42,494 bases of DNA from Treponema sp. (GTDB lineage: Bacteria > Spirochaetota > Spirochaetia > Treponematales > Breznakiellaceae). The notes under the pieces were generated by a model. It was given only the letters and a program-made list of their open reading frames with translations. It was not told the DNA's origin and did no database searches. Numbering within the stretch: the first letter of the stretch is position 1; every line of letters begins with the position of its first letter. Where the stretch lies: NCBI GenBank assembly GCA_031280125.1, contig JAITHE010000109.1, positions 1 to 42,494 on the forward strand, in the 5' to 3' direction. Positions 2,449 to 41,106 of this stretch are shown here, piece by piece. The position numbers and the translations under genes are program-made.

Positions 2449-4080
2449 TCATTCCCCGGAACCCCGGAATACCCAGTACCGGCCGTCAAAGACATAGGTC
2501 CCCCCGGCGCGGCGTCCGGTGTAATAGGCGCGGTAGAAAAAATCGTTCATAAAGGTATACCGGTCCTTGCCCTCCAGCACACTGTACAGGGGATTTCCGG
2601 CAAAGGCCCCGGAGACAATCCTGTTGTTGGCGGTGATCCGGATAGTCTTGAGGGCGTTCCCCGCAAAGGCCCGGTTGTCTATGCCCACATTCCGGGCATC
2701 CACCGTGAGGGTTTCCAGCTTGTTGCCGGTAAAGGCCCCCTCCCCTATGGACTCAACCCTGGAGGGAATCACCGCCGCCGCCAGGCTGTTGTTGGCAAAG
2801 GCCCGGCTGCCGATACTCCGCAGGCCGCCGGACAGGTTAAGGTTGGTCATGCCGTTATTGGCAAAGGCTTCTTCTCCAACGGCGGTAACGCTTTCCGGAA
2901 TGTTTACCACCGTCAGCTTGTTATCCGCAAAGGCCCCCTCCCGGATAACGGTGATATTTTCGGGAATCACCAGCTCCTGCATGCCGTTATTCCTAAAGCA
3001 GGAGGCGCTGACGTTCCGGATCCCCCGGGGCAGGGTTACAGACGTCAGGGCATTTCCCTCAAAGGCGCCGGCCCCTATGGAGCTAACGGTCTCCGCAATA
3101 TCCAGGGAGGCCAGTTTGTTTTTGGCAAAGGCGTTGTCCCCTATGGTCTTGACCGTGCCGGGGACGGAAAGGGAAACAAGCTGATTGTTCGCAAAGGCCC
3201 CCTCCCCTATGGTTTCCACAGCGCCGCGGATAGAAAGGGCCGCGATCTGGTTGTTGGCAAAGGCTTCCGCGGGGATGGTTTTAAGGCCGCCGGACAGGGT
3301 CAGTTCCGTAAGCTGATTATCCGAAAAGACCCCCGATCCCAGACCCGTTAACGAGGCCGGCAGGGCCAGGGCTTTAAGACTGTTGTTGGCAAAGGCCCCT
3401 TCGCCGATCCGTACCAGACCCTCGGCACAGGTAAGTTCCGCCAAAACCCCCTTCTCCTTCGCGGAAGCAAAGGCAGAGGGGCCAATGGACGTAACCGTAC
3501 CGGGGATACTAACCGAGGTCAGCTTGGAATTAAGAAAGGCCCCCTCCCCTATGGTTAAAAGCCCGCTGGAGAGGGTCAGTTCCGCCAGCTCGCTGGTCCG
3601 GCTCCCCGCCCCGGCGGCGTCTTCCGCGCCCCCTTCGGCGGCTTCCGCCGGTTGTACCGCGGCAAAGGCATAGTTTCCTATGGCGATGACGCTGCCGGGG
3701 ATGGACACCTTCACCAGCCTGGTATCCGCAAAGGCATAGTTCCCAATACGGACCACCGTGGCCGGGATGGTAACGCCGGTCAGGGCGCTGCCCCGGAAGG
3801 ATTCATCCCCAATTTCCACCACCGTTTTGCCGTTCACCCTTTCGGGAATCTCAAAGACGGCATTTTTTCCCCTAAAGGCGGTGATCCTGAGCTCCCCGGT
3901 CAGGGCGCCGTCTTCGCCGGCTAATTCCAGTACCTCCAGTTCGTTATCCGCCGGCGGCTCCTCCCCGCCGGGGCTGTCCGCGCCGGTCCCCGGCTTGCAG
4001 CCGGCCAGCATCAACAAAATAAGCAAAAGAACTCCGGAAAGGGAAATCCCCCGCCGGAACACCGTGGTTTTGACGATCAT
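2449..4080 (-). CDS. BspA-type leucine-rich repeat lipoprotein
   Basis: A predicted surface or periplasmic lipoprotein of 543 residues. Residues 1-28 form a signal peptide ending in the lipobox LAGC (Cys at about 28), followed by an acidic linker. Residues from about 65 to 500 are tandem repeats of about 23 residues of the LRR_5 (BspA / TpLRR) kind, with cores such as IGEGAFANN and LTxVxIPxxV. A non-repeat C-terminal tail of about 30 residues rich in Tyr and Arg follows. In spirochaetes and Bacteroidetes these proteins are tied to adhesion and protein binding; the ligand here is unknown. The start has AGGAGG eight bases upstream. It lies 78 bases downstream of the skp-like gene on the same strand, so co-transcription is possible. 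Confidence 0.93.
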   Translation of the reverse strand: MIVKTTVFRRGISLSGVLLLILLMLAGCKPGTGADSPGGEEPPADNELEVLELAGEDGALTGELRITAFRGKNAVFEIPERVNGKTVVEIGDESFRGSALTGVTIPATVVRIGNYAFADTRLVKVSIPGSVIAIGNYAFAAVQPAEAAEGGAEDAAGAGSRTSELAELTLSSGLLTIGEGAFLNSKLTSVSIPGTVTSIGPSAFASAKEKGVLAELTCAEGLVRIGEGAFANNSLKALALPASLTGLGSGVFSDNQLTELTLSGGLKTIPAEAFANNQIAALSIRGAVETIGEGAFANNQLVSLSVPGTVKTIGDNAFAKNKLASLDIAETVSSIGAGAFEGNALTSVTLPRGIRNVSASCFRNNGMQELVIPENITVIREGAFADNKLTVVNIPESVTAVGEEAFANNGMTNLNLSGGLRSIGSRAFANNSLAAAVIPSRVESIGEGAFTGNKLETLTVDARNVGIDNRAFAGNALKTIRITANNRIVSGAFAGNPLYSVLEGKDRYTFMNDFFYRAYYTGRRAGGTYVFDGRYWVFRGSGE

Positions 4081-5045: not shown

Positions 5046-5756
5046 TTACGGAACAATGGCCGGGAACAAGGGTCCCCAGGGACCGGCCTGGCCCTTGGAA
5101 TTTTCGCAGCGGATACAAAAGTACACCGTGGAACCCCGGTCTTCGTGGAAGTCCAGCCGCTCCTTCCTCCGCCGGGTCCACTGGGAATGGGGCAGGTCGT
5201 CCCCGGTGGCGGGGGGATTCATCAACAGCCGCCGCTTCCCCGTGGCCAGTTCCACCCCCGCGCCCCCCGGCGGGTAGATTCCCCAGTAGATCCGGTATCC
5301 GTAGTCGCCCCGGACATCCGCCGGATCCTGACCGGCCACCGGGCGGCACCGCAGTTCCAGCACCCCCGGCCCGGGGAAGCTCACATCCGCCTCGGCAAAC
5401 TCCGCGGGGGGCGGGGCCGGCGTGGGGATACTGTCCCGGGGTTTCAGGAGCAGCGCCGGATAGTCCGCCTCCAAGAGGGGCGGGGCGTGGACATACCGCT
5501 CCTTGATAAACCGCAGCTTCTGTACCAGCGCCTCGAAGGCCGCCCGGCACGCCGCGGTGGTCTTTTGGTTCCGGTCCGACCCCTTGGCGGTGGCCAGGGC
5601 CGCGTCCGCCGTCCCCGTGAGGGTTACCAGCTCCGTTACCTCCCCCTGGGGAATGTTCCAGGCCGTATACTTCTGGGCCAGGACGGTCATCCAGACCTTG
5701 CCCAGGTTCAATACGTCCTCCCGTCTGCCGGGAATCCAGTCTGATCTTTGGTTCAT
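5046..5756 (-). CDS. Conserved hypothetical protein ending in a fibronectin-like fold
   Basis: A cytoplasmic-looking protein of 236 residues with no signal peptide. The first half is helical (WIPGRREDVLNLGKVWMTVL near the N terminus, then Ala/Thr-rich helices), with a Pro-rich hinge around residues 108-120. The second half is beta-rich and ends with GPWGPLFPAIVP, a closing motif I associate with a poorly characterised family seen in Treponema and Bacteroidetes. Two starts are possible: ATG 5762, only two bases after GGAGG, and ATG 5756, eight bases after it; I chose 5756. A TATAAT -10 box lies at 5813-5818. Its promoter region is formed by the 21-bp dyad array. Function unknown. Confidence 0.8.
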   Translation of the reverse strand: MNQRSDWIPGRREDVLNLGKVWMTVLAQKYTAWNIPQGEVTELVTLTGTADAALATAKGSDRNQKTTAACRAAFEALVQKLRFIKERYVHAPPLLEADYPALLLKPRDSIPTPAPPPAEFAEADVSFPGPGVLELRCRPVAGQDPADVRGDYGYRIYWGIYPPGGAGVELATGKRRLLMNPPATGDDLPHSQWTRRRKERLDFHEDRGSTVYFCIRCENSKGQAGPWGPLFPAIVP

Positions 5757-5796
5757 AACCATTTCCTCCGTTAAACCCCAGAGTAAACCCTCCGGC

Positions 5797-5976
5797 GTCT
5801 AAAGGCAACGAAATTATATCTGTAGACAACAGAGCATTGTCTAAAGACAACAGAGCATTGTCTAAAGACAACGAAGCATTGTCTAAAGACAACGAAGCAT
5901 TGTCTGTAGACAACGAAGCATTGTCTACAGACAACGGAGCATTGTCTAAAGACAACGAAGCATTGTCTACAGAAAA
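5797..5976. repeat. 21-bp tandem array carrying TTGTCT-NN-AGACAA dyads
   Basis: About eight and a half units of exactly 21 bp: 5797-5817 (degenerate), then 5818, 5839, 5860, 5881, 5902, 5923 and 5944, and a partial unit from 5965. Each full unit junction contains the dyad TTGTCT-NN-AGACAA; the two central bases vary (AA, GT, AC) while both arms are kept, except in the degenerate end units. The only other variable site is a triplet (GAA, AGA, GGA). The most degenerate unit contains the TATAAT -10 box (5813-5818) of the minus-strand gene at 5756. Spacing of 21 bp is two helical turns, so the dyads face one side of the DNA. The array can be read without stops on both strands as a heptapeptide repeat, but I see no convincing start site there. 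Confidence 0.9.
5813..5818 (-). promoter_or_regulatory. -10 box TATAAT upstream of the 5756 gene
   Basis: A perfect TATAAT on the minus strand, predicting a start near 5806 and a leader of about 50 bases with a good ribosome binding site. The best -35-like match is TAGACA, 19 bp upstream and part of a 21-bp repeat unit, so the repeat array supplies the upstream promoter sequence. Confidence 0.5.
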
Positions 5977-6174: not shown

Positions 6175-6192
6175 GGGGGGGGGGGGGGGGGG
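6175..6192. repeat. Homopolymeric tract of 18 G
   Basis: An uninterrupted run of 18 G on the plus strand (C on the minus strand) in the intergenic region. Tracts this long are prone to slipped-strand length change. In Treponema pallidum, poly-G tracts near antigen genes are known to vary and to change expression. No gene start lies close by; it is inside the candidate orphan transcript. Confidence 0.95.
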
Positions 6193-6299: not shown

Positions 6300-6328
6300 A
6301 TTGTAGGGAGGATGGGGGATTTTGTCAA
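6300..6328 (-). promoter_or_regulatory. Near-consensus sigma70 promoter facing a gene-free region
   Basis: TTGACA (6328-6323), a 17-bp spacer, and TACAAT (6305-6300) on the minus strand. This is one of the best promoter matches in the window, yet the next start codon downstream is over 500 bases away. The -35 begins about ten bases past the stop of the CAP-domain gene. Confidence 0.6.
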
Positions 6329-40791: not shown

Positions 40792-41106
40792 TCAGAAGGC
40801 CCCGCCGTCCCCAATCAGCTTGTATTCAATGGAATCCACCAGCGCCGCCGTCAATAACCCACACCTTCTCATCCGTCAGGAGCACCGCTTCCAGCCGGGA
40901 GTGAAACCATCCAGGGCCCGGATAACCGCCAGCTTGTCTTCAATAGAAAAGGAAATCCCCTCCCCCTGGGCGCCGTCCCTGAGGGTCGTATCGAGGAGTT
41001 CGACGTCAGGCGGTTCGTTAAAAGTTTTTTCGCCGGGCGCTTCTGTGTCCGGGCGCTTCACACTGGTGTCCGGGCGCTTCACACTGGTGTCCGGGAGCTT
41101 TCCCAC
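40792..41106 (-). pseudogene. Remnant of a citramalate synthase (cimA-like) gene
   Basis: Three disconnected pieces of a CimA/LeuA-family protein lie in order on the minus strand. The N-terminal piece (about 41007-40909) reads [20 protein letters not shown] and on to IRALD, the usual CimA opening. The second, in another frame (about 40900-40844), reads [19 protein letters not shown], resembling the C-terminal regulatory region. The third, in a further frame (about 40850-40792), reads AALVDSIEYKLIGDGGAF and stops, matching the usual CimA end. The catalytic core of some 400 residues is gone. The frame enters from the leuA 3' end through the 21-bp repeats, with a possible GTG at 41106. It is not expected to be functional. 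Confidence 0.75.
41033..41090. repeat. 21-bp tandem repeat with ACAC-NN-GTGT dyad
   Basis: Two identical 21-bp units (41049-41069, 41070-41090) and a shorter third copy (41033-41048). Each full unit holds the dyad ACAC-TG-GTGT. The repeat spans the leuA stop codon (41079-41081) and the start of the cimA remnant. It has the same period and two-base dyad centre as the array at 5797-5976 but no sequence similarity. Confidence 0.85.

Follow-up and report, generated by a model that had tools for sequence, protein, structure and literature searches.

Palindrome arrays of 21-bp period before the genes of an undescribed many-copy family in three bacterial phyla

The window, i.e., the whole stretch of 42,494 nt from Treponema sp. 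that was analysed, carries a run of TTGTCT-NN-AGACAA palindromes located 5' of a minus-strand gene. A sequence-only reading had taken this run for a phased array of sites for a dimeric protein. This raises the question of whether the array belongs to the adjacent gene and what it might do there. We find that the array is one case of a larger phenomenon: a gene family with many copies per genome is almost always accompanied by a start-proximal array of 21-base palindromes.

The array and its locus

Perfect copies of TTGTCTNNAGACAA start at positions 5837, 5858, 5879, 5900, 5921, and 5942. They are flanked by imperfect units (one mismatch at 5963, two mismatches at 5816, and a more degenerate unit at 5795). 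The spacing between all units is 21 bp, and TRF reports a period of 21 with 7.1 copies and 92% matches. When up to two mismatches are allowed, the dyad is found 10 times in the window, compared to 0.61 times on average and never more than 3 times in 100 dinucleotide shuffles, so that the array as such is real. The centres of the units are AA, GT, and AC. The 7-bp linker also varies, with its purine/pyrimidine pattern being conserved. The features of the locus are listed in Table 1. Another 21-bp repeat of the window (GTGTCCGGGCGCTTCACACTG; positions 41045-41100, 2.7 copies, 97% matches) has no family gene nearby.

Table 1. Features of the array locus (positions in the window)
Feature	Position	Strand	Basis or remark
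Phased 21-bp dyad array (14-bp palindrome plus 7-bp linker)	5795..5976	-	Dyad search, TRF; the sense strand is the minus strand
Six perfect TTGTCT-NN-AGACAA units	5837..5955		Motif search
Degenerate gene-proximal units	5795..5836		Include TATAAT at 5818-5813 (minus strand), which has no good -35
Degenerate distal unit TTGTCTACAGAAAA	5963..5976		The variant also terminates the array of locus L002
Gene (236 aa) of the undescribed many-copy family; a three-helix bundle and an FN3-like domain are predicted	5046..5756	-	Profile searches, structure prediction
Shine-Dalgarno GGAGG	5765..5769	-	Start thereby the second ATG (5756), agreeing with homologue alignment A2
Likely promoter TTGACA-17-TACAAT (11/12 matches), upstream of the array	6300..6328	-	Promoter type enriched in homologues
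Stretch of 18 C within the predicted leader (G when read on the plus strand)	6175..6192	-	L106 and L107 have shorter C-runs at this place

Read in gene sense, the order of elements is sigma70-type promoter, leader, array, short gap, Shine-Dalgarno, and ATG. The best sigma70-type site of the locus is the one listed in Table 1, about 320 bp upstream of the array. With a promoter at this position, the predicted leader would be about 0.5 kb long and would include the array and the 18-C run. This run lies between the likely promoter and the array, and a change of its length could give phase-variable expression. Two genes downstream of the family gene, a BspA-type leucine-rich repeat protein is encoded (2449-4080).

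The sequence-only reading had placed the -10 box of the gene in the degenerate end unit of the array. A TATAAT is present in the degenerate proximal unit, but there is no acceptable -35 at a distance of 16-18 nt. It is doubtful as a promoter because of the better site upstream of the array and because homologues show an excess of sense promoters before their arrays. Within 350 bp before the array, a sense sigma70-type promoter was found at 19 of 59 loci and an antisense one at 6 (shuffles: 3.5 +/- 1.7). The gap between array and gene is below 45 bp in 18 of 69 cases, so that a quarter of the gaps is too short for a promoter to fit in comfortably. A Shine-Dalgarno-like motif ends 61 of the 69 gaps. 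The gaps are more stably folded than their shuffles (mean z -1.27, with 25 of 52 below -1), and a T-run after the gap hairpin is rare by inspection (e.g., present in L099, absent in L085). Judging from the positions of promoters and ribosome sites, transcription probably includes the array.

Pure heptamer runs (CCCGGCT, ACAGGCC) were seen further upstream in L100, L077, L078, and L081. An antisense promoter-like site (TTGACA-16-nATAAT or TATTAT) occurs in L100 and L077 and also near the arrays of L080, L086, and L093.

Arrays accompany one gene family in three phyla

Searches of Pfam, NCBIfam, PHROGs, and PADLOC, the latter representing models of defence systems, gave no credible match for the product of the window gene. 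A profile search of solved structures with the family protein gave one weak, unrelated match and no credible one, and there were no matches among phages or plasmids. The structure, predicted with high confidence (pLDDT 93.5), consists of three helices followed by a beta sandwich, which matches FN3 domains in a fold search. This fold contains no recognised DNA-binding domain, and the window gene product is not of the ribbon-helix-helix type according to its predicted structure. The protein alignment of the family (A2) begins with M-x-x-x-x-D-W-L-P. In the literature searched, we found no earlier description of the gene family or its arrays, and the element appears to be new as judged from the lack of a match in these libraries and this literature.

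Family members come from Spirochaetota, Betaproteobacteria, and Planctomycetota. The genome that contains the window (G000) has 24 matches. Matches were obtained for 66 of 100 genomes of the taxonomic family of the host, with up to 31 per genome. From Spirochaetota at large, 6 of 297 genomes were positive, all 6 belonging to the taxonomic family of the host, and in Planctomycetota the family was found in 5 of 294 genomes with two to eight copies each. We assume that proteins resembling the family also occur in Bacteroidota. Most of the genomes are fragmented metagenome assemblies, and many family copies are located at contig ends. Locus L098 is on a closed 3.86-Mb contig (genome G028), which we take to represent Treponema azotonutricium, a cultured termite treponeme.

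The association between arrays and the family was assessed by a census of the best-scoring repeat period before all family genes that protein similarity had brought up and that had 200 bp or more of upstream sequence. The seed alignment was built from array-bearing loci, and all later members were added by protein similarity only. Since pure heptamer runs lie further upstream at some loci, the census left out all multiples of 7 except 21, 42, and 63. For 85 of 98 distinct family gene starts, the 450 bp upstream contain a leader array with a best period of 21, 42, or 63. Among the other 13 starts, one has a period of 44 and twelve are without an array above the threshold, four of these being just under it with a period of 21 or 42. 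Counts by group, obtained with slightly different cut-offs, are 39/42, 15/20, and 15/17. Only 7 of 72 full-length family genes are without an array. The median array size is about 10 units. As a blind control, 245 kb of G000 were scanned; a single such array was found, directly before a truncated family gene. The association of the arrays with one gene family in three phyla is thus shown.

While the 21-bp period is fixed, the unit sequence is private to each gene copy: units differ from copy to copy (GAATTATATAATTC, TTCGCTACAGCGAA, GATTCTAAAGAATC, GGCGTTGCAACGCC, and TTCTTGATCAAGAA among others), and most family genes within G000 are unrelated in their units. Between genomes, more similar proteins tend to have more similar units (Mantel r 0.27, with 0 of 2000 permutations as high), the signal coming mostly from proteins which are more than 70% identical. 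Arrays and proteins thus travel together, with the arrays changing faster, and unrelated units are possible even between proteins with 70-80% identity.

In G000, arrays of the TTGTCT type are present at only three places, namely in the window and on C160 and C169, and there is one two-unit site on C50. At this site (C50:17350-17384), the two units form a 35-bp near-perfect palindrome (GCGTCTAAAGACAATGCTCCATTGTCTTTAGACGC). Relatives do have 21-bp dyad arrays, as the sequence-only reading had led one to expect: the two-unit pattern occurs in 11 of 200 genomes of the taxonomic family of the host, spanning 9 genera, and on 24 contigs among 84,980 species genomes. These 24 contigs are from Treponema or Spirochaetaceae MAGs, Zoogloeaceae/Azoarcus MAGs, and one Planctomycetaceae MAG. 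No viral contig with the pattern was found. The bin names of pattern-bearing contigs presumably follow the style of termite-gut MAG collections (cf. PMC7024585). When the genes flanking TTGTCT-type arrays were listed, a homologue of the window gene adjoined 13 of 27 arrays, nearly always directly downstream; several of the remaining arrays are at contig ends.

An array can persist alone, since solitary arrays and arrays before other genes occur (L001, L061). Locus L001 has the array of the window and about 250 bp of its upstream flank in common with the window, but not the gene; a 462-aa gene, which is not the family gene, is found 19 bp from the array. At L061 (9713-9997), a strong 21-bp array precedes a gene for a GH1-like glycosidase by about 60 bp. 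In L164 (6098-6480), L150, L054, L144, and L199, the family gene is reduced to its first 28-101 residues, and some of these copies still have an upstream array, if sometimes a weak one. This truncation, sparing the 5' end, is thus repeated.

Dyad symmetry is conserved within the arrays

The sequence-only reading had stated that the arms are kept while the central bases vary, and had named slippage alone as another possible origin of the array. Both points were addressed by counting variation per position in 178 units from 13 TTGTCT arrays. The inner arm varies by 0-1.4%, the outermost arm by up to 11%, the two central bases by about 30%, and the linker by 12-22%. Variation in arms and centre is therefore unequal, and the dyad is selected. 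Slippage alone is not sufficient because it would spread changes evenly, unlike the observed position dependence.

Pairing is stronger than in period-preserving column shuffles for 32 of 66 arrays (p<0.05), with means of 0.68 and 0.54, respectively. It is nominally, but not decisively, stronger within units than across the linker. Shuffling array by array with only the consensus as input made too weak a test. The two arms covary within arrays (z 5.2, p<=0.0005), arm changes being compensated. Alternative self-complementary dyads occur side by side, namely TTGTCT/AGACAA and TAGTCT/AGACTA in L062, and TTTTCT/AGAAAA in L064. Upstream of L189, two 21-bp units alternate strictly (period 42), both being palindromic about a common GAA...TTC core. 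Dyads are weak in the arrays of L072, L079, and L087. Dyad symmetry is thus shown to be conserved.

The linker follows the pattern YRRNYYR in 32 arrays from three phyla, with mirror-symmetric base frequencies. Because the linker is itself two-fold symmetric, symmetry axes (the centre of the 14-mer and the centre of the linker) follow each other every 10.5 bp, which is one helical turn.

Folding is better than in period-preserving shuffles (p<=0.05) for 34 of 52 arrays in sense and for 29 of 52 in antisense orientation. A signature of sense-strand RNA hairpins was not found: 26 of the 52 arrays fold relatively better in sense, and wobble-compatible mismatches amount to 5.0% on the sense strand versus 9.0% on the antisense strand. 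Searches of RNA families gave only weak matches to miRNA models below the gathering score, which are expected because any inverted repeat gives them.

Proposed function and comparison with known systems

A function of the array in cis-control is likely. Our tentative proposal is that it acts as a leader array which controls its own downstream gene, probably via dimers on DNA. Each copy would be a two-part unit, with a promoter, a 21-bp dyad array as 5' leader, and a Shine-Dalgarno sequence with the gene, and the array, transcribed with the gene, would control the expression of that gene in cis. The most likely ligand would be a dimeric protein assembling in phase along the DNA, either the product of the gene or a partner specific for this product. 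Dimers on duplex DNA are favoured because of the two-fold symmetry without strand preference, the fixed arms, and the helical phasing. The own product or a specific partner is more economical than a common regulator because the dyads differ between family members of one genome. For the same reason, the dyad is not a regulon motif, and the idea of the sequence-only reading that repeat number could set regulator dosage is not supported as far as a shared regulator is concerned. A regulon operator array was also rejected in view of the few TTGTCT sites in G000. Several observations speak against protein dimers on DNA: the predicted fold has no recognised DNA-binding domain, the dyads of some arrays are weak, some arrays are solitary or precede other genes, and the unrelated units of proteins with 70-80% identity demand much of protein-DNA specificity. 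Structure-based recognition is better suited to neighbouring units with different yet self-complementary dyads (L062, L064, L189).

The main rival to dimers on DNA is action at the RNA level, which we regard as rather doubtful. On transcription, the array would fold into a series of small hairpins with 6-bp stems and 7-nt loops, and this series would be processed or bound and would control or neutralise the downstream protein, either like a type III toxin-antitoxin system or as a translational leader. The order of promoter, array, hairpin, Shine-Dalgarno, and gene corresponds to the type III layout (PMC5086642). The folding of gaps and arrays relative to shuffles, the tolerance for any arm sequence provided that it is complementary, the survival of arrays after gene truncation, and the small number of array-less full-length genes also fit. 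However, the sense strand is not preferred, wobble-compatible mismatches are rarer in sense than in antisense, the loop is two-fold symmetric, and the protein matches neither defence-system models nor, credibly, profiles of solved structures.

Two further explanations are both unlikely. As a site of recombination or variation, the array would drive slippage, amplification, or exchange, thereby varying expression or moving copies, and the truncated copies and contig breaks would be its traces. The many family copies at contig ends, the arrays followed by just the first 30-50 codons in several genomes, the shared array and flank of L001, and the 18-C run in the leader are in line with this, but slippage needs neither a period of 21 across phyla with private sequences nor a near-zero change of the arms, and no accompanying recombinase was noticed. 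Alternatively, the arrays could be non-functional satellites, kept alike by slippage and perfected as palindromes by template switching during replication. Template switching can yield compensated arm changes, and the private units change fast relative to the protein. Against a satellite stand the position dependence of change inside arrays, the linker pattern common to three phyla, and the single exact period shared by 85 of 98 genes, with near absence elsewhere in the genome. That the array is a coding sequence for seven-residue peptide repeats has a negligible probability. The unit length is divisible by three, and the array can be read through in some frames (LSKDNEA-type repeats), but the start codon and Shine-Dalgarno of the family come after the array, and central-base variants (TTAA, TTGA, GT centres) stop every frame in some array, so that this candidate was rejected. 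A phage, plasmid, or viral element was rejected because the protein and the two-unit pattern are both without matches there.

We cautiously suggest a new class of two-part element. It would comprise a helical-bundle/FN3 gene family spread between phyla in gut bacteria, each copy having a private, co-evolving 21-bp palindrome array in its leader, and this array, as DNA sites or as RNA, would specifically control or neutralise the cognate protein. Such a control region, with one spacing kept across phyla and another sequence at each of the many copies in a genome, is unusual. It implies either that recognition depends on structure or that protein and DNA, or protein and RNA, co-evolve rapidly as a pair, and this dozens of times in each genome. 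Termite-gut spirochaetes are rich in the family, yet the protein-family libraries searched gave no credible match. As a cultured termite treponeme probably carries the family, the proposal is directly testable.

Several known systems share traits with the arrays. Plasmid iterons also have about two helical turns per unit and are gene-adjacent. The arrays, in contrast, are on chromosomal contigs with many copies per genome and have dyad units. The term iteron-like, used in the sequence-only reading, describes an analogy only, and an iteron or replication origin was rejected because there is no Rep-like protein, copies are found on many contigs, and phage or plasmid matches are absent.

In the operators and parS sites of pSM19035 Omega/ParB, dimers bind cooperatively to WATCACW heptads, which adjoin each other in direct and inverted orientation (PMC9499535). 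Both these sites and the arrays have adjoining 7-bp steps in a gene's control region. However, the heptads have one sequence and one ribbon-helix-helix protein, while the arrays have a period of 21 and a private dyad per gene, and a ribbon-helix-helix protein is not seen at the window locus. An Omega-type heptad operator was rejected on these grounds.

The TAACTGA heptamer repeats of Beggiatoaceae, Cyanobacteria, and Bacteroidetes are intergenic, often just before start codons, and patchy across phyla (PMC4679880). They resemble the arrays in their multiples of 7 bp, their proximity to start codons, and their patchy occurrence in phyla, but represent one fixed heptamer before unrelated genes and not private sequences with dyad symmetry before one gene family.

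Type III toxin-antitoxin loci have one promoter, tandem RNA repeats, a hairpin, and one protein gene (PMC5086642). The family protein, with its predicted three helices and FN3 domain, is not similar to ToxN, CptN, TenpN, or AbiQ by profile or defence library. Units here are two-fold symmetric 21-mers, and most gap hairpins, by inspection, are without an evident T-run such as that of a Rho-independent terminator. The likeness to ToxIN, CptIN, TenpIN, and AbiQ lies in locus-private tandem repeats followed by a hairpin and then by a single protein gene. The arrays also take the position of the type III repeats, being found before 85 of 98 gene starts with promoters enriched upstream of them, and may share a transcript with the gene.
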